DNA from: Paracoccaceae bacterium | GTDB taxonomy: Bacteria; Pseudomonadota; Alphaproteobacteria; Rhodobacterales; Rhodobacteraceae | Length of the DNA stretch: 64,000 nucleotides | Assembly (NCBI GenBank): GCA_030148745.1 | Contig: JASBSV010000044.1 | Location: 1-64,000 of the forward strand | Direction of reading: 5' to 3' | Part shown: positions 7,390 through 20,985 of the stretch, piece after piece | Numbering within the stretch: the stretch's first letter is position 1 | Layout of the letters: each line of letters opens with the position of its first letter | Notes under the pieces: generated by a model | Told to the model about the DNA's origin: nothing | The model's input: the letters and a program-made list of their open reading frames with translations, nothing else | The model's database searches: none | Made by a program: the position numbers and the translations under genes

Positions 7390-8796
7390 TCAGCCCAGCA
7401 AGAGCCCCGGCAGGAAAAGAACGATCTGAGGGAAGGCCACCAGACCGGCGATGGTGGCCGCATCGGCCAGAAAGAAGGGCGCGGTGCCGCGAAACACATC
7501 CTGAACCGAAATATCGGGGCGCACGCCGGCCACGACAAAGCAGTTCAGCCCGATGGGCGGGGTGATCAGACAAAGCTCGGCCATTTTTACCACGATGATC
7601 CCGAACCAGATCGCGGCCTGTGTCGAGGTCATGCCAAAGGCGCTGTCGGCGACCGAGACGCCCTCGCCGCCGTTCAGCGCGATGATCGCGGGAAAGACGA
7701 TCGGCAGGGTCAGCAAAAGCATCCCGATGGCATCCATGAACATGCCCAGCACCGCATAGGCCAGAAGGATCAGCAAAAGGGTGATCATCGGCGATTGATG
7801 CAGCCCGCTGATCCAGTCGGCGAAGGCGCCGGGAAGATCGGCAAAGCCCAGAAAGCGCACATAGATCAAAACCCCCCAGATGATGGTAAAGATCATCACG
7901 CTCAGCTTGGCGGTCTCCAGCAGCGCCGATTTAAGCTCGGGCCAGCGCATGCCGCGATAAAGCGCGATCAGAAAGACCACAAAGGCCCCCAGCGCGCCGC
8001 CCTCGGTGGGCGTGCCCCATGCATCGCCGCCAAAGGGGTTGTAGATGAACAGGATGATGATCATCACCACAAAGACGATGGGCAGGGCGCCGGGCAGGGC
8101 CTCAAACCGCTCGCGCCAGCTAAAGCCTGTGACAGGGGGGCCAAGCTTTTTCCAGCCCACCGCCATGCCGATCACCAGCGCGGCATAGATCACCGCCGAA
8201 AAGGCGCCGGGAATGAACCCTGCCAGCAGGAGCGAGCCGACGTCCTGTTCGACGATGATCGCATAGATCACCAGAATGGCCGAGGGCGGGATCAGCGAGG
8301 CCAGAGTGCCAGCCGCCGCCACGACACCGGCGGCAAAGCGGCGGTCATAGCCGATGGCCAGCATTTCGGGGATCGCGATGCGGGCAAAGACCGCCGAAGT
8401 AGCAACCGAAGCGCCCGAGACCGCGGCAAAGCCCGCGGTGGCAAAGATGGTCGATACCCCAAGCCCGCCCGGAAGCCGGCCGACCCAGCGCTTGGCAGCG
8501 GTAAAGAGCGCTTTGGTCAGCCCTGCGTAATAAGCGAGGTACCCGATCAGGATGAAGGTGGGAATGAGCGACAGCGCCTGCGAGGAGACTTTGGAATGCG
8601 GCACCTGACCTGCGGTTTTGACACCGATCGTCAGCGCCCAGAAGAAGGCCTGCGGATCATAGCCTTTCTTGGCCCAGAAGATCCAGACGAGGCCGGTGAC
8701 ACCGGCGATTGCGGCGGCAAAGGCGACGCGGGTGCCGATCAGCACCATGATCAGCATTAAGCCGGTGACGATAAGGCCGATATCAATGGGTGCCAT
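7390..8796 (-). CDS. dctM: TRAP transporter large permease (DctM family)
   Basis: Multi-TM; GASVATSAVFARIAIPEMLAIGYDRRFAAGVVAAAGTLASLIPPS is a TRAP-large-permease signature. Confidence 0.93.
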   Translation of the reverse strand: MAPIDIGLIVTGLMLIMVLIGTRVAFAAAIAGVTGLVWIFWAKKGYDPQAFFWALTIGVKTAGQVPHSKVSSQALSLIPTFILIGYLAYYAGLTKALFTAAKRWVGRLPGGLGVSTIFATAGFAAVSGASVATSAVFARIAIPEMLAIGYDRRFAAGVVAAAGTLASLIPPSAILVIYAIIVEQDVGSLLLAGFIPGAFSAVIYAALVIGMAVGWKKLGPPVTGFSWRERFEALPGALPIVFVVMIIILFIYNPFGGDAWGTPTEGGALGAFVVFLIALYRGMRWPELKSALLETAKLSVMIFTIIWGVLIYVRFLGFADLPGAFADWISGLHQSPMITLLLILLAYAVLGMFMDAIGMLLLTLPIVFPAIIALNGGEGVSVADSAFGMTSTQAAIWFGIIVVKMAELCLITPPIGLNCFVVAGVRPDISVQDVFRGTAPFFLADAATIAGLVAFPQIVLFLPGLLLG

Positions 8797-8891
8797 GGTG
8801 CAAGTCTTTCAAGCGCTGTTGCGAAGGCCGGGTTGGGGCCGCCTCCGGCGGGGATATTTTTACCAAGAGGAAGAGGGGGCGGGGGCGCCGG

Positions 8892-9530
8892 TCATGGGCT
8901 GTCATCAAAGCCGGACACGGTGTCGGCTTCATGCGCGGCCTGGGCTGCGGCGTCTTCCACCAGCGGGACCGCCACCGGGTGCGGATCATTGGTGATGAAG
9001 GCGCGGCCATAGCCCCAGAGCTGGAGCGCAAGGCGCAGGCAGAGCAGCGCAAAGGCCAGCGGGATCATCAGTTTTCCCGGCCAGAGCGGCAGGGAGATAT
9101 CCATTGAGCTGTCGCGCGACCACAGCGGGGCGGAGAAATCGAAGCTGCGCTGGAAATGCGCCCAGCTGCCCCAGACCAGCAGGATCATCAGGATGAGCAT
9201 GAAGAGGACTGACAGGAACTCGGCCGCCCAGAGGGCGCGGCCGCGCAGTTTGCCCACCAATATGTCCATGCGGATATGGCCGCCGTCGCGCTGGGTATAG
9301 GCAACGCCCATCACGGCGATCAGTGGCATGGCCTGTTCGATCCAGTCGACATAGCCGGGCAGCGGCGCGTTGAAGAAATTGCGCCCCCCGACCGAAACCA
9401 CCGCCAGAAGCATCAGGGCGAAGACGGCGATGCCCGATACCAGTGCAAAAAGCCGTTCGAGCCGATAGATGGCCTGATCAAGATGGCTGTAGCCTGAGCC
9501 ATCCGTCAGGACGGACGAATGTCCGGCCAT
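8892..9530 (-). CDS. dctQ: TRAP transporter small permease (DctQ family)
   Basis: Four-TM protein between dctP and dctM; RNFFNAPLPGYVDWIEQAMPLIAVMGVAYTQRDGGHIRMDI. Confidence 0.9.
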   Translation of the reverse strand: MAGHSSVLTDGSGYSHLDQAIYRLERLFALVSGIAVFALMLLAVVSVGGRNFFNAPLPGYVDWIEQAMPLIAVMGVAYTQRDGGHIRMDILVGKLRGRALWAAEFLSVLFMLILMILLVWGSWAHFQRSFDFSAPLWSRDSSMDISLPLWPGKLMIPLAFALLCLRLALQLWGYGRAFITNDPHPVAVPLVEDAAAQAAHEADTVSGFDDSP

Positions 9531-9597
9531 GAAACCTCTCCTTGTTATTCGGGGTGGGGCCGCCGCCTTTTTGTCGCGGCGGCCCCGGATTTGGCGG

Positions 9598-10614
9598 TTA
9601 CTTCGATTGCGCCAGAGTGGTTTTCACCAGATCGTAAAGCTCCTGCGCGGGCAGGCCCTTGGCGGTGTTGTCGGCGATCCACTGCTCTGCGACCGGGCCG
9701 GCGGCTGCCTTGCGGAAATCGGCAAGCTCTTTGTCCGAATAGGTGATCAGCTCGGTTCCCTTTTCGGCAAGCTTCTTTTCCCATGCGGTCATCGTCTTGG
9801 AGTTGTAGTTGTCGACGTAATAGGCGAGTGCCTCGTCGACCGAGCCCAGAAGCGCCTCGCGCTCTTTATCGGTCAGGGCGTTCAGCGCGTCGGTATTGAC
9901 CACCACGGGGCAGTTGACAGTGCCGGGGTTGAGGTTGGTGGTCCACCATTTGGCCGGTTCGATCGTGCCGAAGGACAGATGGGCGTGCGGCGCGAAAGCC
10001 ACCGATTTGACCACGCCGCTGTCGAGCGCCTGACGCGCTTCGGATGAGGTGACGGAGGTGGGCACCGCGCCCAGCAGCGCCAGTGCATTGCCCACGCCGC
10101 CGACGGCGCGCACGGTCAGACCGTCGAAATCGGCCAATGTCCGGGGCGGTTTGCCGACGCCTGCGATATTGTACTGAGGCAGGGGCGAGGGCATCAGAAG
10201 CGTGGCGTTCCAGCGCGCCAGATCGGCCACGGTCGCGGGGTGCTTATAGACCGCCTGCGAGACCTTGATTTCCTCATTGAGGTTCGACACGCCCAGGAAG
10301 GGCAGTTCAAGAACGGTGATCGAGGGGTTCTTGTCGCGGTGGTATCCGGCGCAGAACTGGGCCATCTCGAAGGCCCCGATCGAGATCCCGTCGAGGTTCT
10401 CGCGGTTTTTCGAAAGGCCGCCGTAGCTGATGTTGAGAGTGAACTCACCGTTGGTTTTCTTGGAAACCAGTTCGGCCAGTTTTTCGACATGCTCGGTAAA
10501 GGCGCGCCGCTTGCCCCAGAGCGAGACATTCCATTCGGTGGCGAGCGCCTGACCGGCAAAGCCCAGAGTTACCGCTGCGACTGCGGCGGCATTCAAAATT
10601 CTACGTGTCATCAT
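9598..10614 (-). CDS. dctP: TRAP transporter substrate-binding protein (DctP family)
   Basis: Signal peptide; GKPPRTLADFDGLTVRAVGGVGNALALLGAVPTSVTSSEARQALDSGVV. Confidence 0.9.
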   Translation of the reverse strand: MMTRRILNAAAVAAVTLGFAGQALATEWNVSLWGKRRAFTEHVEKLAELVSKKTNGEFTLNISYGGLSKNRENLDGISIGAFEMAQFCAGYHRDKNPSITVLELPFLGVSNLNEEIKVSQAVYKHPATVADLARWNATLLMPSPLPQYNIAGVGKPPRTLADFDGLTVRAVGGVGNALALLGAVPTSVTSSEARQALDSGVVKSVAFAPHAHLSFGTIEPAKWWTTNLNPGTVNCPVVVNTDALNALTDKEREALLGSVDEALAYYVDNYNSKTMTAWEKKLAEKGTELITYSDKELADFRKAAAGPVAEQWIADNTAKGLPAQELYDLVKTTLAQSK

Positions 10615-10760
10615 GTCCTCCCTGACGGTGCAGGCGCATTGAACCGGCCTGCTGACGGGCGCAGGATAGAGCGGCGGGCGCGATTACCCAATGAATAAAT
10701 CCGCAAGGGCGCGGGGGCATTGCCTGCGGATTTCCGCAGGGCAGGCCGCCGGTCGGGGCC

Positions 10761-12089
10761 TCAGAGCAGCTGATCTTTGGACAGGCCCAGCTTGACGATC
10801 TTTTCGTTCAGCGTGCGCCGGCCGATGCCCAGGGCCTGGGCGACATCGTCCATCTGGCCGCCATGTGCCTTCAGCGCCCGGGCGATCATCAGACGCTCGA
10901 AACTGGCTACGGCCTCGCGCAGGGTGGCGGGCATATCGGCGGCGGCATCGGTGCCGCGAATAGCATCGCTGACCGAGCCGCGCCCCGAGCGGGCCTGCAA
11001 CAGCCGGCGTTCGGCGACATGGCGCAGCTCGCGCACATTGCCGGGCCAGTCATGGGCCAGAAGCGCGGCGATATCCTCGGTCGTGGTCTGGGGGGCGGGT
11101 GTTTCATAAAGCTCGGCGTAATGGGCGATGAAATGGGCAAAAAGGACCGGAATGTCGTCGCGGCGGTCGGCCAGTTTCGGCATGGTCAGAACCAATGTGT
11201 TGAGCCGGAACAGAAGATCCTGGCGGAACCGGTCCTGCGCGACGGCACTGTCGAGATCGTCGTTGGAGGCCGAGAGAAAGCGCAGATCGCGCGCCGGGCC
11301 GCCGTCATCGCCGGTCTGCCCGGTTTCGCGCATTTCCAGAATGCGCAGCAGTTTGGCCTGAACCGGCGCCGGGCAGGTGCCCACCTCATCAAGAAAAACC
11401 GTGCCGCCATCGGCCCGCGCCAGAAACCCCTGCGGGCCCAGTGCCATTGCTTCGAACCCATCGGGCGAAAGTGTGGCGCAGTTGATGGCCACGAAAGGGC
11501 CCTGCGCGCGGGGGCTAAGGTCGTGAATGGCATGGGCGACCAGCTCTTTGCCGGTGCCTGTGGGGCCCAGCAGAAGAACCGGCGCGGTGCTGTCGGCAAG
11601 GGCCAGAACCTCATCGCGCAGCTGGGTCAGGGCGGGGCTGTCGCCCAGAAGCACCCGGTCGAGCCCGGCCAGCTGTGACAGACGCTGGCGCAGCCGGCTT
11701 GCGTCGCGCGCAAGGCGCGATTGTTCGGCGCCGTGGCGCAGGGCCGTCAGCAGGCGCCGCGGGTCAAAGGGTTTTTCAAGATAGCTGTAGGCGCCGTTCT
11801 GCATCGCCGCCACTGCCGAGGGAATATCGCCATGCGCCGAGATCAGAACGACCGGAGGGCCGCCGCGGCGCTGGACGCTTTCCAAAAGATCCATTCCCCC
11901 CATGCGCGGCATGCGCACATCGCTCAGGATGACATCGGGGATCTGTTCGCTCAGCCGGGCCTCGGCGGCCTGACCGTTGGCGCAGGTCTCGACCTCCCAG
12001 CCGGCGCGCGTCAGGAGATGCTCAAGCGACTGGCGCATCTCGCGGTCGTCATCGACGACCATGACCCGAAAGGCGGTGGGTGAGCTCAT
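10761..12089 (-). CDS. dctD: Sigma-54-interacting response regulator, DctD type
   Basis: Receiver domain, AAA+ Walker A GPTGTGKE, Fis-type C-terminal HTH; overlaps the kinase gene. Confidence 0.9.
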   Translation of the reverse strand: MSSPTAFRVMVVDDDREMRQSLEHLLTRAGWEVETCANGQAAEARLSEQIPDVILSDVRMPRMGGMDLLESVQRRGGPPVVLISAHGDIPSAVAAMQNGAYSYLEKPFDPRRLLTALRHGAEQSRLARDASRLRQRLSQLAGLDRVLLGDSPALTQLRDEVLALADSTAPVLLLGPTGTGKELVAHAIHDLSPRAQGPFVAINCATLSPDGFEAMALGPQGFLARADGGTVFLDEVGTCPAPVQAKLLRILEMRETGQTGDDGGPARDLRFLSASNDDLDSAVAQDRFRQDLLFRLNTLVLTMPKLADRRDDIPVLFAHFIAHYAELYETPAPQTTTEDIAALLAHDWPGNVRELRHVAERRLLQARSGRGSVSDAIRGTDAAADMPATLREAVASFERLMIARALKAHGGQMDDVAQALGIGRRTLNEKIVKLGLSKDQLL

Positions 12090-13849
12090 TTCGGGGCCTC
12101 TTCGGTCAGGGGCAGGATCATGTCGAAACGGGCGCCGCCGCCGGCGCGGCTGCTGGCGCGCAGGGTGCCGCCGTGATCTTCCATGATGGCGGCCGAGATC
12201 GCAAGGCCAAGGCCCATGCCTTCGCCCGAGGGGCGCGAGGTGTGAAACGGCTCGCTCAGCTCTTCGATGCTCCGGGCGCCAAACCCGGCGCCGCGGTCCC
12301 TGACCGACAGGATCGCCTGATCGCCCTCTGTCTCCAGTGTGATCTTCAGCTCCGTCGCGCCGGTTTCGGCCAGCGCCTGCTGGGCGTTGCGCAGAAGGTT
12401 GACCAGAACCTGTTCAAGCCGCAGCCGGTCGCCGGTGACGATCACCGGCGCCTCAGGCGTGGTGATCTGCGGCGTGATGCCGGCGGCATCCAGATCGTGG
12501 CGCACAAGGCCCAACGCGCCTTCGATGACCTTTTTCATCTCGACCGGTTTGGCGGGGGTGCCGCCGTCGGTGGCGAAAAACCGCAGCTGGCGGGTGATGT
12601 TTTCCATACGCGCGATCAGCCCGCCCAGACGCGCAAGCAGCATCCGGTCGCCGCTCTCGGCGCCGATCTCTTCGGCGGTCAGATAGGTGCGCATCGCTGA
12701 AATCGGCTGACCCAGTTCATGGGTGACCGAAGCGGCCAGACGGCCCAGCGCGGCCAGACGGCTGGCGCGGTCAAGCTCGGACTGGGTGCGTGCCAGCCGC
12801 CGTTCGGCGCGGCGCCGCTCTTCGATCTCGCGCTCCAGCCGCCGGTTGATCGAGCGCAGTGCCACGCGGTCGGCCTGAGACACCCTGAGCGCCTGGCGCA
12901 CCCGGCGCGCCCTGATCAGAAGATAGCCGGCATAGGCCCCGCCCAAAAGCGCCGCCATCGCCAGCGCGGTCAGCAGGGCGCGTTGCCGGATCGGGGCGAT
13001 ATCGGTCAGGAAATAAAGGCTCCACCCCAGACGAGGCAGGGGAGTTGTCACCTCAAGAAAGCGGATGCCATTCAGGCGCACCTCGGAATTTCTGCCGGGC
13101 CGCCAGTCAAGCGGCGCCAGCGGTTCGCCGGCGAACTGGCGCGCCACATCGACCGCCGCGCGCCGTGCCGGGCTGAGCGGGGCAAGCGTGCGGTAGCGCA
13201 GCGCCGGGTCCGAGGCCAGAACGATCACCCCATCTGCGTTGGCGACAAAAACCTTTTCACCCGGCGTATCCCAGACCCCGGTCAGTGCGCCCAGATCGAT
13301 CTTGAGCGCGACAACCCCCTGAATGCCGCGCCCGCCGGGCCCCGGCACCCCGGCGGCGATGAAATAGCCCGGGCGCGCCGTGGTGGCGCCGATGGCAAAG
13401 AACTCGCCCTGACGGCCCTCCATCGCGGCCTTGAAATAGGGACGAAACCCATAGGATTGGCCCAGAAAGGTCAGGGGCTGGTCATAGTTCGAGGCTGCAA
13501 CCGTCAGGCCGGTGCGGTCCATGACATAAAGCGCATCAACCCCGGCGCGGCGCGCGTATTCGGCCAGCCGCGCGTTCAGATCGCCGGCTGGCTGGCCCGC
13601 CACTGCCGCGCGCAGGGCGGGATCTTCGGCCAGAACGAAGGGCAGATGCTGGAACCGGTCCAGCGCCTCGGACAAAACCGCCTGATAAAGCCGGGTGCGG
13701 GCCATGGCCCGGGTCAACTCGGCCGATTTGAAGGCCGTAAACGACAGGCTGAAGACCACCCAGCAGAGCGCAAGGCCCGCCAGTATCAAAAGCCATGGGC
13801 GCCAGAGCGGGCGCCCGCGCGGCCTGATTTTCGCCATCACGGTTTCCAT
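12086..13849 (-). CDS. dctB: Sensor histidine kinase, DctB type
   Basis: N-term TM, periplasmic sensor, H-box RLAASVTHELGQPISAMRTYL, N/G boxes; likely start METVMAKIRPRG. Confidence 0.88.
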   Translation of the reverse strand: METVMAKIRPRGRPLWRPWLLILAGLALCWVVFSLSFTAFKSAELTRAMARTRLYQAVLSEALDRFQHLPFVLAEDPALRAAVAGQPAGDLNARLAEYARRAGVDALYVMDRTGLTVAASNYDQPLTFLGQSYGFRPYFKAAMEGRQGEFFAIGATTARPGYFIAAGVPGPGGRGIQGVVALKIDLGALTGVWDTPGEKVFVANADGVIVLASDPALRYRTLAPLSPARRAAVDVARQFAGEPLAPLDWRPGRNSEVRLNGIRFLEVTTPLPRLGWSLYFLTDIAPIRQRALLTALAMAALLGGAYAGYLLIRARRVRQALRVSQADRVALRSINRRLEREIEERRRAERRLARTQSELDRASRLAALGRLAASVTHELGQPISAMRTYLTAEEIGAESGDRMLLARLGGLIARMENITRQLRFFATDGGTPAKPVEMKKVIEGALGLVRHDLDAAGITPQITTPEAPVIVTGDRLRLEQVLVNLLRNAQQALAETGATELKITLETEGDQAILSVRDRGAGFGARSIEELSEPFHTSRPSGEGMGLGLAISAAIMEDHGGTLRASSRAGGGARFDMILPLTEEAPK

Positions 13850-14050
13850 CCCGCCTAGAGAAACGCTGCGGCGGGCAATGTCAAATGCGCCGGCGCTGGC
13901 TGAGCAAGCCCCAAAGGGGCGTTCGGTGCAGCGACAGGTCATCACGGACCTGTGATCCGGGTGGACAGAGAATTTTCGGAACCGCTGCCCAGCGCGGGCG
14001 TTGGGCCAGCAGGTTAAAAATTTATTAAATACCAATTCAAGGCCCGGCCA

Positions 14051-14749
14051 ATGAATTTCGACTTTCTCTATTTCCTCGCTCAGCCGTGGTTTGTCATTCC
14101 ATGGTATGGGTTTGGCATCCTCGCCGCGGCCTGGTCGGTCTATGATATGCTGATGGTCAACACGCAGGTGAATGCGCCGCTAAAGGCGGCCTGGCCGATC
14201 ATCATCGTGTTCTTCTCGGTTCTGGGGCTGGCCTTCTATTTCTGGACCTGCCGTCCGCCCGGGGTGGCCACGATGAATGAGGCGCGCAAAGAGGAGGTTC
14301 ACCACGACTATGTCGACAACCTGTTTTTCAAGACCACCGGCGCGCTGATCCATTGCGTTGGTGGCGACGGCCTGGGCATCATGACGGCGATGGTGGCGCT
14401 GCGGCTGATCGGGGTCAGCTTCTGGGTCGAGTTCTGGATTGAATATGTCGTCGGCTTTGCCTTTGGCTGGCTGATCTTTCAGCTCTGGGCGTTTTTGCTG
14501 CATGGCAATTCGCTGGGCGAGGCGCTGTTCAAAGCCTTCCGGGCCGAGTTTTTCTCGATGATGACAGTGATGATCGGCATGGGGCTGGTGATGGCGAATG
14601 TCACCCCCAAACTGGTGGGCGAGCCGCCGACGCCCGACATGGCGGCCTTCTGGGGTTTTTCGGCCTTTGGCCTGCTGGTCGGCACGGTGCTGACAGTGCC
14701 GGTGAACCTGGCCCTGATCAAACTGGGGTGGAAAAATGGCATGGCTTGA
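14051..14749 (+). CDS. DUF4396-like multi-TM membrane protein
   Basis: MNFDFLYFLAQPWFVIPWYG...KTTGALIHCVGGDGLGIMTAM...GFAFGWLIFQLWAF; several TM helices. Confidence 0.7.
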   Translation: MNFDFLYFLAQPWFVIPWYGFGILAAAWSVYDMLMVNTQVNAPLKAAWPIIIVFFSVLGLAFYFWTCRPPGVATMNEARKEEVHHDYVDNLFFKTTGALIHCVGGDGLGIMTAMVALRLIGVSFWVEFWIEYVVGFAFGWLIFQLWAFLLHGNSLGEALFKAFRAEFFSMMTVMIGMGLVMANVTPKLVGEPPTPDMAAFWGFSAFGLLVGTVLTVPVNLALIKLGWKNGMA

Positions 14750-14900
14750 ACTGGCATTCTCGATGACCTCGATCCTGCTGATGCAGGCGATGACCGGCCA
14801 CGTCAATGAGCGTAGGCTGGGCGAAAAAATCTATAATAAAATATCATTTATTAAACACAAACAGGGATTTGAAGATGACGGGGACAAGCCGGGGATCTAG
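14736..14900 (+). CDS. Putative 54-aa small ORF overlapping both neighbours
   Basis: ATG at 14736 inside the end of the upstream gene: MAWLELAFSMTSILLMQAMTGHVNERRLGEKIYNKISFIKHKQGFEDDGDKPGI*; hydrophobic N-term; below the ORF-track cutoff. Confidence 0.35.
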   Translation: MAWLELAFSMTSILLMQAMTGHVNERRLGEKIYNKISFIKHKQGFEDDGDKPGI

Positions 14901-16380
14901 CGATTATCAACAGGAATTTAATGCCTCGCAGCTGATCGAGCCTATTGCCGATTACGATGACCGGGCTGCGCGCGTGTGGCTTTACAGCTCGCTCTTCTGG
15001 CTGATGTTTGTAACCCTTGTCGGTCTGACCATTGCAACCGAACTGATCACGCCCAATCTTTTCGGCGGGATCCCCTATCTGCTGTTCAGCCGGATCCGCC
15101 CTATTCACGTCAACGGCGTGATTTTTGCCTGGCTTACGATGATGTATTTCGGCGGAGCCTTCTATGTTCTGCCCCGGCTGCTGGGATTGCGCGCAATGTG
15201 GGGTGAAGGGGTCGCGGTCTGGATGGGCTGGGCCTGGAACCTTGCTTTGATCACCGGTTTTGCCGGGCTTTCGATGGGCTATACCCAGGGGCGGGAGTAT
15301 ACCGAGTTGATCTGGCCCGTCGATGTGGCCGTGATCGCGGTGCTTTTGACGAATATCTTCATTATTCTGATGACGGTGCTGAACCGGCGGGTCAAACCGC
15401 TTTATGTGACGGTCTGGTGGGCTGTGGCCAGCCCGATCTGGCTGGCCGCGGATTATTTCATCGTTAATGTCATGTGGCGACCCGGAACGCTGTTGGGCAA
15501 CGGTGTGCCGGGGGCGAAACTTTCCGGTGCGCTTGAGGACCCGTTGGCCGACGGGATGCTGAACTGGTGGGGCAATCACAATCTGTTTGGTCTGTGGCTG
15601 ACGCCGATGATGGTGGCGCTTTTGTATTATTTCGTGCCCAAGATCACCCGCACGCCGCTCTACAGTCACACGCTGTCGCTGGTGTCGTTCTGGGGGATCG
15701 CCTTCTTTTATACCGGCGTCGGGCATCATCACCTGTTGCAGGCACCGATCCCGGGTTGGCTCAAGACCTTTGCCACGGTTAACAGCATCATGCTTCTGGT
15801 GCCGGTCTTTGCCTTTGTCGGAAACATCTGGCTGACGATGCGCGGAAACTGGGACAAGTTTTTCATCAACATGCCGCTGCGTTTCATGCTGACAGGCTTC
15901 ATCTTTTATTTTCTGGTCAATGTTCAGGGATCCTTCATGGCCGTGCCGGCCTTTAACAAGATGATCCATTTCACCAATTTCATTGTCGCCCATGCGCATC
16001 TTGCGCTCTTGGGTGCCTTTACCTTCGTGGGGATCGGGCTGATCGACTATATGGTTCCGCAACTGGTCCGCCGTCCGATCTATAGCCGCAAATTATCGGA
16101 ATGGACCTATTGGTTGTTGCTGGTGGGATTTTTCGGGTTCTTCTGGGTCCTGACTATTGCCAGTTTCCTTCAGGGGCAAAGCTGGGCCCAGAGCGCGCCT
16201 GAGGTAAATGTGTTGTCGATGCTCAGGCCGCATTTCATCGGTCGCGCCACATTTGGCGCATTGATGGTCTTTTCAACCTTTGTACTGGCCTGGAACGTTC
16301 TGGCGACGATCTTCACCGATACCAGCGCCGGCACCAAAATGGCGTTTCGCCGTGCCGTTGCACCGCAGCCGGGAGAGTGA
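14875..16380 (+). CDS. CcoN-like (C-family) heme-copper oxidase catalytic subunit I
   Basis: RPIHVNGVIFAWL, NWWGNHNLFGLWLTP (CuB His), FFYTGVGHHHLLQ (Tyr and His-His), HFTNFIVAHAHLALLG (heme His pair). Confidence 0.88.
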   Translation: MTGTSRGSSDYQQEFNASQLIEPIADYDDRAARVWLYSSLFWLMFVTLVGLTIATELITPNLFGGIPYLLFSRIRPIHVNGVIFAWLTMMYFGGAFYVLPRLLGLRAMWGEGVAVWMGWAWNLALITGFAGLSMGYTQGREYTELIWPVDVAVIAVLLTNIFIILMTVLNRRVKPLYVTVWWAVASPIWLAADYFIVNVMWRPGTLLGNGVPGAKLSGALEDPLADGMLNWWGNHNLFGLWLTPMMVALLYYFVPKITRTPLYSHTLSLVSFWGIAFFYTGVGHHHLLQAPIPGWLKTFATVNSIMLLVPVFAFVGNIWLTMRGNWDKFFINMPLRFMLTGFIFYFLVNVQGSFMAVPAFNKMIHFTNFIVAHAHLALLGAFTFVGIGLIDYMVPQLVRRPIYSRKLSEWTYWLLLVGFFGFFWVLTIASFLQGQSWAQSAPEVNVLSMLRPHFIGRATFGALMVFSTFVLAWNVLATIFTDTSAGTKMAFRRAVAPQPGE

Positions 16381-17825
16381 TGATGAGCGATCAGGAAAAC
16401 CGTATTCCCGAACACCCGCCGCTGCCCGACGATATTCCGCAATCCAGCCGCAGGCGGCGCATGCTGATGACGCCGCAGATGGTGGTGATCGGCGGGCTGC
16501 TGGCATTTTTTACGGTCGTGTTTTCGGTCGTCATCATGCCAACGGCTACCTATAAACCGGCGATTTCCGACAACTGGCTGCCGCTATCGGATGCGGCGGT
16601 GAACGGACGGGCGATCTATCTTTCGAACGGATGCGTCTACTGTCATAGCGGCTTTAGCCGGCCGCAGGATGTCTTTGCCGGTTCTTCGGCGCTTTATGCG
16701 CGTGCATCGCAGCCCGGCGACTATCGCGGGGTCAGCCAAAGCCCCAATACTTTAGGATCGGTGCGCACCGGGCCGGATATGTCCAACCAGGGCGGGATGC
16801 ATCCCGATGGCTGGCACCGGTCGCACTATTGGAACCCGCGCAGCACCACGCCGATGTCGATTATGCAGCGCTTCAACTTTCTGTCTCAGGATGATCTGGA
16901 CCTGCTGATCAGCTTTACCCAAAGCCAGGGTGGCAAGCTTGCGGCGCTGCGCTATGCCGCGACGCGGACCGGCAATTATCTGATGCGGCTGAATACCGGC
17001 AAAGCGACCCTTGACGAGCCGGATGCGCCGGTTGCCGATCTGGTGGCGCAGGAGCGCGCAAGCGGCGTTTTGCGGCCCCAGGGCAAGCCGATGGATAAGG
17101 CGCCCAGCGGGATGAGCTGGATGGGCGTCTGGCATATGAACAGCTTCTCGCGCTCCTACTGGCTGACCGACAACCCTCTGGAGCTTAACGAGGGAAACCT
17201 AATGCGCGGCAAGGCGACCTATCTTCAGCGTTGTTCGGGGTGCCATGGCGCCAAGGGGGACGGCAAGGGCCCGGGAGCCGAGCGCCTCAGGGTCAAGCCT
17301 TTTGATTTCACCAAACCCACGCTGGCCGACGATTCAGGAACATCCAGCGGGATGATGTACCACCGGCTTTTGACGGCAGGACCAGGCACGGCGATGGAAA
17401 ATTTCGGAACCCGCCTGTCGGTCAACGAGATCTGGAGCGTGGTGATGTTTCTGCGCACCATTCCAAACGGCGGTCTGGAAGAGACGCTGCCCACCGTCGA
17501 CATGTACGAACGCTGGAACCCGCCGGAAAGCCAGCTGCGTTACATGCAGGAAAATCCGATAGAAGAGATGTATTCCGATCTGCCGCAAACGGATGACCCG
17601 TTTGAACAGGCTGCGCGCTGGATCGCGCCGGGAATGGCGCAAAGCGATATGGTCTATGTGGGTGGCAAGCTTGCGATCACACTGGAACGGCTGGCCGGCG
17701 TTATACGCTCTGAATACGGCCGGATCGTCAAAACCGCTTATGATGACGCAAAAAAGCGGGGTGAGGACCTGCCGCCCCTGGCACAGATCATGGATACAAA
17801 GGGGATGATTTTTTATGGACCGTAA
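16377..17825 (+). CDS. CcoO-like cytochrome c fused to a C-terminal cytochrome c domain (di-heme)
   Basis: N-terminal TM, CVYCH in CcoO-like context (NGRAIYLSNGCVYCHSGFSRPQD...RTGPDMSNQGG...WHRSHYWNPRSTTPMSIM), then second heme motif CSGCH. Confidence 0.85.
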   Translation: MMMSDQENRIPEHPPLPDDIPQSSRRRRMLMTPQMVVIGGLLAFFTVVFSVVIMPTATYKPAISDNWLPLSDAAVNGRAIYLSNGCVYCHSGFSRPQDVFAGSSALYARASQPGDYRGVSQSPNTLGSVRTGPDMSNQGGMHPDGWHRSHYWNPRSTTPMSIMQRFNFLSQDDLDLLISFTQSQGGKLAALRYAATRTGNYLMRLNTGKATLDEPDAPVADLVAQERASGVLRPQGKPMDKAPSGMSWMGVWHMNSFSRSYWLTDNPLELNEGNLMRGKATYLQRCSGCHGAKGDGKGPGAERLRVKPFDFTKPTLADDSGTSSGMMYHRLLTAGPGTAMENFGTRLSVNEIWSVVMFLRTIPNGGLEETLPTVDMYERWNPPESQLRYMQENPIEEMYSDLPQTDDPFEQAARWIAPGMAQSDMVYVGGKLAITLERLAGVIRSEYGRIVKTAYDDAKKRGEDLPPLAQIMDTKGMIFYGP

Positions 17826-18129
17826 TCAAAAATCCACGCGATACACCGTCGCCTTTTATGCTTTTACCGCCCTTCTCGGTCAAACCGGCGCGGCACTGGC
17901 CAGCGCTTCGCCCGAGGGCGGAGAGTTCGTCATGGCCGATTGGATGCTACTGTCGTTTCTTGCCTTTTCGGGGGCCGCTCTTGTCGTCTTTCTGGTGGCG
18001 CTCAGGCGCGGGATGTTCAGCCGGATGGAAGAGGCCAAATACTATCTTTTGCGCGTCGAAGAGCCGGATTTTTATACACCAGATTGGATAAGGGAGTTTG
18101 ACGATGATACCCAGCATCCCAACCGGTAG
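17815..18129 (+). CDS. Small membrane protein of oxidase cluster
   Basis: 104 aa; signal/TM then WMLLSFLAFSGAALVVFLVALRRGMFSRMEEAKYYLLRVEEPDFYTPDW; start overlaps upstream stop. Confidence 0.7.
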   Translation: MDRNQKSTRYTVAFYAFTALLGQTGAALASASPEGGEFVMADWMLLSFLAFSGAALVVFLVALRRGMFSRMEEAKYYLLRVEEPDFYTPDWIREFDDDTQHPNR

Positions 18130-18460
18130 CGACCCGGCTACGGCCGCGGCTGTCAACCGCTATATCATGGCCCAATATATGGAACGGATTGCCCGGAACC
18201 GAACCGAAATCCGTTGGGAAGGGCCGATTTATACCCTGCTTTTTGCCGGCACGCTGATCCTGTTCTTTTTTGCCGTGGTCTTCTGGCTTCGGCCGGCGCG
18301 CGGTCTGCGCCCGGCGCTGATGGAGCTGACCTCTTTCGCCGGCCAGTTGACCGAACGTGTGGGCGAGCTTCGTCGTTTTGACGTGATCGCCTGGACGGTC
18401 GTGACAACCTATGCCGCCTATTTTGCGGTGAAGGCGATCCTTGTCGGCATAGTTTATTAG
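18104..18460 (+). CDS. Small membrane protein of oxidase cluster
   Basis: MIPSIPTGSDPATAAAVNRYIMAQYMERIARNRTEIRWEGPIYTLLFAGTLILFFFAVVFW...; two TM; overlaps upstream ORF; ORF track start 18098. Confidence 0.7.
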   Translation: MIPSIPTGSDPATAAAVNRYIMAQYMERIARNRTEIRWEGPIYTLLFAGTLILFFFAVVFWLRPARGLRPALMELTSFAGQLTERVGELRRFDVIAWTVVTTYAAYFAVKAILVGIVY

Positions 18461-18477
18461 CAAAGCGGAGGACCCCA

Positions 18478-18786
18478 ATGGCCTATGGACATTCCTTCAG
18501 TCACGTCACGACCTTTTCGGTGCCGCGCGATCAATGGCCCCGCCTGCAACCTCTGCTCGAGAGCTGGAAGGCGCTGTTACAGGATCTGCCGGGACTTGCG
18601 GGCAGCGATGTGACGGCACATCAGGCCGGCAACGGCGATCTGCGCTGTCACATACGCGTCTCATGGCTCTATCGTGAACAGCTTGACGAATTTCTTGAAA
18701 GTGAGTGGGAGACCGGTCGCCTGATCAGCCGCGCCCAGGCCGGGCTTTACGATGTCCATGCGGAAAAATTCGAACATTTTATCTGA
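18478..18786 (+). CDS. Small soluble conserved-looking protein of oxidase cluster
   Basis: 102 aa MAYGHSFSHVTTFSVPRDQWPRLQPLLESWKALLQDLPGLAGSDV...; RBS-like aaagcggagga upstream. Confidence 0.65.
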   Translation: MAYGHSFSHVTTFSVPRDQWPRLQPLLESWKALLQDLPGLAGSDVTAHQAGNGDLRCHIRVSWLYREQLDEFLESEWETGRLISRAQAGLYDVHAEKFEHFI

Positions 18787-18808
18787 TTTCAAAAGGTGAG
18801 GAACGACA

Positions 18809-19009
18809 ATGACCCAAGCCTCCGATGTATCGCCCCGCGATCCGGCAACCCATTCGAGCGCAGTGGAACGCAAGCGCTCGTTCGAGGCTGAAGATGGCCG
18901 CTGGGAGCGGCGCCAGCAATGGCGCGACTGGATGATCCTGTTGGTCATGATTGCGTTATCTCTTGGATATCACATGACAATTTATGCTTTAGAGCCAGGT
19001 TTGAGATAG
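18809..19009 (+). CDS. Small single-TM protein of oxidase cluster
   Basis: 66 aa, charged N-term then DWMILLVMIALSLGYHMTIYALEPGLR; RBS aaaggtgagga upstream. Confidence 0.65.
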   Translation: MTQASDVSPRDPATHSSAVERKRSFEAEDGRWERRQQWRDWMILLVMIALSLGYHMTIYALEPGLR

Positions 19010-19011
19010 CC

Positions 19012-20985
19012 ATGCAGGTCGAGAATATATCCAACATAGACGCGCTGTTATTTGTGCTGGGGCTTGTCGCGGTCTCGATCCTGATCTTTGTGATGATCCC
19101 GCGCGCCGATGCGCCGGCCCGGCCCGATGTTTTTGACGACGCCGCGATCACCGCGCATGACGCCGCGCTGCCGAAGTACCTTCTGACGGCGGCGCTGGCT
19201 TTGGTGGCCGGGGCGCTGCATCTGGCGATCAAGTCGATACCTCCGGTCGCCGCCTGGCTTGCCGAGGCGGGCCGCGGCGGGCATCTGGCGGCGAATATCG
19301 CCTATAGCCACATGATTATCGTGATGGGCGGCACCATCGCGGTCACCGGGCTGACCTGGTATGTTCTGCCGCGCGTTCTGCGCCGCCCGCTATACAGCGG
19401 GACGCTCGCGCATCTGGCATTCTGGGCCACGGTGGCCGGGGCCGGCGGCTTTTATCTCGTCAATCTGTCTGGCGGGGTGATCATGGGCGCGATGGTGCAT
19501 GGCGGCATGACCGAGGCTCAGGCCTCGGATACTTTGGGTTTGTGGCGCGCGCTGCCGACCGCCGCGGCAGCGGCTTTGATGGGGCTGGGTTACTGGATCT
19601 TTGTGGTCAATGTTCTGGTGACATGCTGGCAGGGACGCCGAAGCGCGGTTCCGCAGCCATTTGGCCATCTGGCCAAGTTTTTCGTGCTGGGAACGCTGGG
19701 GCTGTTGATCGGCACGGTGCAGGGCGTATTGCAGGTGGTGCCTGACAACGAGGACTGGCTTGCCGCAGCCGGTCAGGCAGGGCGCTATATCGATCCGATC
19801 TCGCATGCCCATATCAATCTTCTGACCGGTGTGATGATGCTGGCTGCGGGCATCCTGTTCTATCTTCTGGGCTCGCAGGGCGATACGGCCCCCGACCGGC
19901 GCCGCGCAAATCTGGTGTTCTGGACGCTTGGGCCGGGCTCGCTGGCGCTTTATCTGTCATTCCTGACGCTTGGCCTGCGCGAGGGCGACCTGATCGTCAC
20001 CCGTGGTCTGAGCTTTGCCGAAGCGGTCGCACGTCTGGGTGTTTGGCACGGCATACCGCTGGCTGTCAGCGGTATGGTGGTGCTTGCAGGCCTGTGGACG
20101 CTGTTTGCGACGATTTTGCGCCGTCTTGTGCAACAGATCGCCGGGCTGCCCGGGGCGGCGCTTGTATGTCTTGGGGTTGTGGTTTTGTTCATCGGCACGC
20201 TTCAGGGCGGCGTCCAGATCCTGCCTGCGGTCAAGATGTGGATGGCCGGCGCACAAATCGGCGGGCAGGAAATTGCCCGCACGCATGCGCAGTTCAACAT
20301 GCTTGGCGGCGTTTTGCCGGTCCTGCTGGGCGCCTCGATGATGATCGGGCGGCCGTTTCTGGGCGCGCCGCCGCCGCATGCACTGGGCCATCGCATGGCG
20401 CTGCTGATCGGCGCGGGCGCGGGGCTTTATTATGTCGCCTCGATGGGCGCGGCGTTTGCGATGGCGCGCGCTGAACACGGCACGATCGAGCCGCAGACGG
20501 CTATGGCGCTTCGGTCCATGGCGGCGCCGGTGATCATTGGCGGCGCTTTGCTCTATGCGCTGGCGCTGGCCATTCTGGTGCGGTTCATATGGCGATCGAC
20601 GCGCGGCTACCGCGCGTTGGCATGGCATCGTTTCAAGGCCGAACTGCTGCGCCATGACGCCCCGCAACAGCCATGGCGCGCACGGGTATCATTAGCCGGG
20701 CTTTTGGTGCCAGAGGGGCTGGCCGCGCTGTTTGGCTTTCCCGGACTGGGCTGGATCCTGGGCGGACGGGCCCTGATCGGTGTTCCGCTGATGTTTGGCG
20801 GGCCGGCGCTTGCCTGGGCGATCCTGCCGCTGATCTTTTCACCATATAGTCAGTTTGGCCGGCCCGATCTGGCATTGCCGGTGATCGAAGCTTACCTGTT
20901 GAGCAGTGCCGCGCTCTCGGTTTTGGCTCTCTGGTTTGTCCATTCTGTCGGGTCGGGCGCGGTTAAATCGAACAGCGCGCCGTAG
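19012..20985 (+). CDS. Large polytopic CcoN-related protein apparently lacking the CuB motif
   Basis: 657 aa; YSHMIIVMGG, SHAHINLLTG and THAQFNMLGG helices; no WWxxHN or HHH motif; starts 2 nt after the preceding stop. Confidence 0.75.
   Translation: MQVENISNIDALLFVLGLVAVSILIFVMIPRADAPARPDVFDDAAITAHDAALPKYLLTAALALVAGALHLAIKSIPPVAAWLAEAGRGGHLAANIAYSHMIIVMGGTIAVTGLTWYVLPRVLRRPLYSGTLAHLAFWATVAGAGGFYLVNLSGGVIMGAMVHGGMTEAQASDTLGLWRALPTAAAAALMGLGYWIFVVNVLVTCWQGRRSAVPQPFGHLAKFFVLGTLGLLIGTVQGVLQVVPDNEDWLAAAGQAGRYIDPISHAHINLLTGVMMLAAGILFYLLGSQGDTAPDRRRANLVFWTLGPGSLALYLSFLTLGLREGDLIVTRGLSFAEAVARLGVWHGIPLAVSGMVVLAGLWTLFATILRRLVQQIAGLPGAALVCLGVVVLFIGTLQGGVQILPAVKMWMAGAQIGGQEIARTHAQFNMLGGVLPVLLGASMMIGRPFLGAPPPHALGHRMALLIGAGAGLYYVASMGAAFAMARAEHGTIEPQTAMALRSMAAPVIIGGALLYALALAILVRFIWRSTRGYRALAWHRFKAELLRHDAPQQPWRARVSLAGLLVPEGLAALFGFPGLGWILGGRALIGVPLMFGGPALAWAILPLIFSPYSQFGRPDLALPVIEAYLLSSAALSVLALWFVHSVGSGAVKSNSAP

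Follow-up and report, generated by a model that had tools for sequence, protein, structure and literature searches.

The canonical cbb3 oxidase (ccoNOQP; PDB 3mk7 and 6xkw) has the C-family ligands, a cross-link tyrosine and a FixO/CcoO domain, all of which are also found in the gene cluster described here. The cluster differs from it in having no CcoP or CcoQ, in carrying a cytochrome c domain on its CcoO protein, in encoding one large and four small additional proteins (p9 and p5 to p8, respectively), and in having VQG where canonical cbb3 has FEG. On S. meliloti pSymA (L022:7953-11050), a non-canonical CcoN (~35% identity) is followed by a FixO-cytochrome c fusion, as in the cluster studied here, and hence the CcoO fusion is not unique to this cluster. 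The S. meliloti fusion, in which FixO is joined to two cytochrome c stretches in a protein of 554 aa, is longer than p4, and p5 to p9 were not detected in the pSymA locus. Azoarcus also has a non-canonical CcoN gene with CcoO/cytochrome c variants.

The cluster lies in a 64,000-nucleotide stretch of DNA from a Paracoccaceae bacterium, referred to here as the window, and the ORFs listed in an earlier sequence-only reading were all found in it at the positions given. That reading had described a cluster of nine ORFs. Seven of these form a block of syntenic genes, in the order subI-p4-p5-p6-p7-p8-p9 (Table 1), but the other two do not belong to it. A 54-aa ORF at positions 14736 to 14900 overlaps the start of subunit I and has a counterpart in none of the related loci; it was rejected as a gene and is probably spurious. 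The gene at the 5' end does encode a DUF4396-like protein, as had been proposed, but we place it outside the conserved block, since L019 and L017 carry it near the block but pointing the opposite way, and no copy was found in the related loci L018 and L020; it is possibly its own transcription unit and a loose neighbour of the cluster. The remaining assignments, namely, a CcoN-like subunit I, a CcoO protein fused to one extra cytochrome c, four small ORFs and a large CcoN-related last protein, were borne out, although the COX1 match of p9 falls just below the Pfam cut-off. The ORF of subunit I opens at position 14806, and its likely start is the ATG at 14875, which is preceded by AGGGA and an AT-rich intergenic stretch. 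The most likely start of p9 is at 19012, giving 657 aa; p9 residue numbers used here refer to a 659-residue translation from 19006, in which the Met at 19012 is residue 3.

Table 1. Features of the oxidase cluster and of the related stand-alone arc proteins (window positions unless a locus is named)
Feature	Position	Strand	Evidence
DUF4396 membrane protein, 232 aa	14051..14749	+	PF14342, E 5.7e-26
Subunit I, C-family (cbb3-like) heme-copper oxygen reductase, ~501 aa	14875..16380	+	COX1, E 2e-75
p4, CcoO (FixO) plus one further cytochrome c domain	16377..17825	+	FixO, E 2.6e-23; Cytochrom_C, E 1.2e-12
p5, small membrane protein, weakly FixS/CcoS-like	17815..18129	+	Synteny in L018-L020
p6, 120 aa, apparently two TM segments	18098..18460	+	Synteny in L018-L020, 40-62% identity
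p7, 102-aa soluble protein	18478..18786	+	Synteny, 41-60% identity
p8, 66-aa single-TM protein	18809..19009	+	Synteny, 44-50% identity
p9, 657-aa protein with heme-copper oxidase (HCO) fold	19012..20985	+	COX1, E 2.1e-8; Foldseek 3mk7_A
Stand-alone four-TM arc proteins	L024-L037, L068:1067-1579, L069:1053-1604, L069:18592-19101		

When subunit I was scanned against one genome per species for 85,462 species, only four relatives were returned, from Roseibium aggregatum, Rhodobacterales HKCCE3408 and MAGs labelled Aurantimonas coralicida and Paracoccus. The gene order is identical in all three of the loci with enough flanking sequence (L018, L019 and L020); the Roseibium contig stops just after subunit I. 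Counting the window genome, the block is thus the same gene for gene in four genomes, all of them alphaproteobacterial, with its parts 41 to 89% identical to their syntenic relatives. Since the fusion and the extra subunits are present and syntenic in these relatives, the block is neither a chance arrangement nor an assembly artefact, a concern for which the sequence-only reading had proposed just such a survey. A class-wide search did not find p9 in any of the 385 other genomes covered. The block is conserved, rare and of patchy distribution, and was presumably acquired by horizontal transfer.

Subunit I was claimed to hold a complete ligand set, and the HCO histidines are indeed all present, with H77 in helix II, H234 in helix VI, H284 and H285 in helix VII, and H372 and H374 in helix X. 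These six residues are invariant across the clade and the reference rows of our alignment, as is Y278 of helix VII, which is aligned with the catalytic tyrosine of CcoN. With every ligand and Y278 kept, the protein looks like a catalytically competent C-family oxidase, in agreement with the earlier assessment. It is 70 to 87% identical to its homologues in L017 to L019, has HVNG as its helix II motif and a glutamine (VQG) in place of the FEG glutamate, and does not pass the ccoN equivalog model TIGR00780 (259.5 bits versus a cut-off of 583). In a maximum-likelihood tree, the subunit I clade lies within the C family, opposite canonical CcoN across a split (95/97 versus 99/97), and groups weakly with CcoN-like genes of family f187, which are probably zetaproteobacterial (87/81 support), although long branches limit the reading of the clade's exact place and are the reason why the placement of the S. 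meliloti and Azoarcus rows is not trusted. Nesting within the canonical CcoN clade was not seen and, as judged from the alignment and the tree, subunit I belongs to the C-family (cbb3-type) oxygen reductases but lies outside that clade.

The N-terminal domain of p4 is a CcoO (FixO) subunit by its PF02433 match (83 bits versus a cut-off of 29.6), and the protein is 58 to 79% identical in L018 to L020. It holds two CxxCH motifs, CVYCH and CSGCH, and its conserved residues Met163 and Met340 could be heme axial ligands. No separate di-heme CcoP is encoded in the cluster, where TIGR00782 reached 15.5 bits versus a cut-off of 180. The earlier statement that CcoP and CcoQ are missing is true of the cluster, but another locus of the genome (L002), with a canonical CcoN and a CcoP-like start, looks like a canonical cbb3 locus. 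Among the small proteins, p5 is probably an assembly subunit akin to CcoS, the FixS match of its L018 homologue having an E value of 0.0048. While p7 matches no Pfam family, its AlphaFold model (pLDDT 85.6) has the ferredoxin-like beta-alpha-beta-beta-alpha-beta order. Family searches gave no useful match for p6 and p8, and p6 to p8 are presumably accessory proteins.

The window genome encodes six COX1 proteins, including subunit I of the cluster, as well as a bc1 cytochrome b. A locus on contig C28 (L006:1252-2931) specifies a 560-aa COX1-family protein that scores 137.7 bits and passes no NCBIfam oxidase cut-off, an unclassified heme-copper oxidase or NO reductase, and two further loci (L003:1369-3003 and L004:1369-2943) specify divergent CtaD-like subunits I far under the equivalog cut-off. 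Within the window, the minus strand of positions 7393 to 14035 carries TRAP-type transporter-like genes followed by genes for a DctB/DctD-like sensor kinase and a sigma-54-type regulator. This two-component pair was set aside as a regulator of the cluster, as it adjoins and is in line with the TRAP-type genes, and both are probably unrelated to the oxidase cluster. No FNR box was found upstream of the cluster, and the window-wide count of such boxes was only mildly above chance. In the Aurantimonas MAG, genes for a di-heme cytochrome c, with PdsA as its best named match, and a SoxA/TsdA-type cytochrome c lie directly 3' of p9 (L019:13249-15158), a hint of electrons from sulfur compounds in that genome only.

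The catalytic subunit of the oxidase shows a three-fold pseudo-symmetry that has long been taken to suggest triplication of a four-helix unit, and it is in this respect that p9 stands out. The AlphaFold model of p9, built from four sequences, is of moderate confidence, with a pLDDT of 65.7, the core of residues ~45 to 535 being better than the ends. The top Foldseek match of this model is the CcoN chain 3mk7_A (probability 1.00, TM-score of 0.71 on the CcoN chain, 521 columns), and p9 is predicted to adopt the whole 12-helix core of the heme-copper oxidases. An N-terminal TM segment is followed by three arcs of four TM segments each, at residues ~45 to 215, 216 to 379 and 380 to 533, and by a C-terminal TM module. 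When the arcs were compared by hhalign, the scores were 79 for arcs 1 and 2, 84 to 88 for arcs 2 and 3, and 38 for arcs 1 and 3, with control maxima of 34 among 40 reversed and 24.6 among 480 column-shuffled comparisons; the likeness is thus clear for the two neighbouring pairs and marginal for arcs 1 and 3. The arcs of CcoN score 14 to 37 against each other and are barely alike, the best value of 37 standing against a control maximum of 34, and p9 arcs reach at most 48 against CcoN arcs. By these profile scores, the three four-helix arcs of p9 are detectable repeats of one unit.

Four histidines are invariant in p9, H102, H267, H269 and H427, with one or two at the equivalent position in each arc. 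In the alignment of p9 homologues, no histidine is invariant in the helix that corresponds to helix VII, and hence the usual CuB site is impossible in this protein. In CcoN, the histidines precede a conserved proline by either 22 residues (H77 and H372) or 20 residues (H234 and H374), which defines two registers. In HCO structures, H374, the second position of arc 3, pairs with H77, the first position of arc 1, around the low-spin heme, and H234, the CuB ligand at the second position of arc 2, faces H372, the ligand of the high-spin heme at the first position of arc 3. These pairings lead to the rule that the second position of each arc faces the first position of the next one. The aligned positions in p9 are Y100/H102 in arc 1, H267/H269 in arc 2 and H427/Q429 in arc 3, for which the rule gives two His-His interfaces (H102/H267 and H269/H427) and one empty interface (Q429/Y100). 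The ligand set of p9 thus reads as the CcoN pattern rotated by one arc, and the protein is predicted to bind two bis-histidine b hemes. An independent BLASTP alignment of subunit I with p9 pairs H234 with H102 and H372/H374 with H267/H269. The triplication and the rotated ligand set together, which the sequence-only reading had missed, are the real oddity of the cluster.

Arcs of this type also occur alone. A search with a p9 profile in 399 genomes of the phylum returned proteins of ~170 to 205 aa, mostly in family f187, that are complete single arcs with four TM segments and an AHAH or AHTH motif. Type A has AHAH and lies near a Bact_hydrolase-type gene, and type B has AHTH and lies near a gene for a thioredoxin-like lipoprotein. 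The f187 genomes with single arcs also carry the nearest non-canonical CcoN genes: both kinds of gene are present in 22 genomes and on one contig in 15, and one single-arc type is located 1.7 to 5.6 kb upstream of the CcoN-like gene, on the same strand, in 15/15 informative genomes. An extra HCO-fold protein beside a non-canonical CcoN therefore recurs in a second lineage. At L069:9831-17074, a CcoN-like gene is accompanied by a CcoO-like gene that contains a large additional region and by genes for several cytochromes c and a copper protein of the cupredoxin type, a probable zetaproteobacterial oxidase cluster.

The arc-to-arc scores favour an origin of p9 by tandem triplication of a single-arc unit. 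It could instead be a circularly permuted CcoN paralogue, given that its arcs 1 and 2 are co-linear with helices VI to XII of subunit I, with matching ligand positions in the BLASTP alignment, and that a one-arc rotation of the CcoN ligands yields its own set. The co-linear match and the rotated ligands would, however, fit either origin. The scores of 79 to 88 between neighbouring p9 arcs and 58 to 143 with stand-alone arcs (116, 143 and 58 for the first single-arc type against the p9 arcs), versus 48 for the best CcoN arc, place the p9 arcs closer to each other and to the stand-alone arcs than to CcoN; repeat amplification of one unit is favoured for this reason, and we regard permutation as unlikely. 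The single arcs may themselves derive from CcoN rather than precede it, since their likeness to CcoN is highest for arc 3 (77 to 80 for the first type).

With regard to function, our preferred reading, to which we assign a probability of roughly 0.45, is that the cluster specifies a cbb3-like oxygen reductase of a non-canonical kind in which p9 serves as a di-heme b relay into p4. Electrons would enter at p4, the periplasmic fusion of CcoO and cytochrome c with its two hemes, and from there reach subunit I at its low-spin heme, with O2 being reduced at the b3-CuB centre. As a non-catalytic relative of subunit I, p9 would be a triplicated four-helix heme-b protein with hemes at the H102/H267 and H269/H427 sites, and it would act as an electron relay in the membrane, most plausibly passing electrons from quinol or another membrane donor to p4. 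In this scheme, we infer heme occupancy, complex formation, the donor and the direction of electron flow. A quinol-linked relay would be dispensable for growth, since the genome has bc1 and an apparently canonical cbb3. Alternatively, p9 might be an assembly or maturation factor rather than an electron-transfer subunit, delivering heme or copper or providing a folding scaffold, and the cbb3-like oxidase that it serves would be divergent but ordinary in other respects. Cbb3 oxidases require dedicated maturation factors, which fits such a role, as do the weakly FixS/CcoS-like p5 near p9 and the position of a stand-alone single-arc gene next to thioredoxin-like lipoprotein and cytochrome c genes, where maturation genes are often found; a purely assembly-related p9 would also be expected to leave the same gene-level signature as a relay. 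However, a scaffold would need less than the full 12-TM HCO core and paired histidines that p9 retains, and no second p9 was detected in the same genome, so that its canonical cbb3 does without such a partner. On balance, an assembly role is conceivable but doubtful. Far less probable is that the enzyme reduces NO or has some other main substrate: HVNG in helix II and the change from FEG to VQG set subunit I apart from a textbook CcoN, but the tyrosine and both histidines of helix VII are invariant, whereas a NorB-type subunit lacks the active-site tyrosine, and the solved chains closest to subunit I are those of cbb3 CcoN, at 163 to 211 bits versus 21 to 28 bits for NorB.

Under the preferred reading of p9 as a relay, the cluster suggests a class of oxidases that electrons enter by an unusual route. 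The sequence-only reading had considered it an undescribed system. Our literature search, which covered papers outside subscription access, yielded nothing on point for the arrangement of the cluster, for DUF4396 with cytochromes or for triplication of HCO arcs, but the C-family kind of oxidase is known, and the S. meliloti and Azoarcus variants exist. A bolder proposal is that the HCO four-helix unit is modular, still existing alone and open to triplication, with HxH single arcs forming three-fold symmetric homotrimers around three bis-His b hemes and p9 being a fused two-heme electron-entry subunit of a new cbb3-like class; taken as a whole, this is speculative and rather improbable. The orphan CcoN subunits found in Pseudomonas are CcoN paralogues of the ordinary, catalytic kind, from which p9 differs in lacking the helix-VII CuB ligands and in being internally triplicated. 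Like the Pseudomonas genomes with such orphan subunits (PMC5697931), the window genome has more than one CcoN-type protein. The CcoN-like genes of f187 are the closest relatives of subunit I outside its clade (~300 bits) and are likewise paired with an extra HCO-fold protein. Their neighbours differ from those in the cluster, comprising genes for a cupredoxin-like protein and several cytochromes as well as CcoO-like and possible CcoP-like genes, and, in place of the three arcs of p9, their extra protein has just one arc of four TM segments (~170 aa). Thus, p9 is an oxidase-fold protein whose arcs can still be recognised as copies and have single-arc relatives that exist alone; with both found beside non-canonical C-family oxidases, the origin and modularity of the fold become testable with real proteins.
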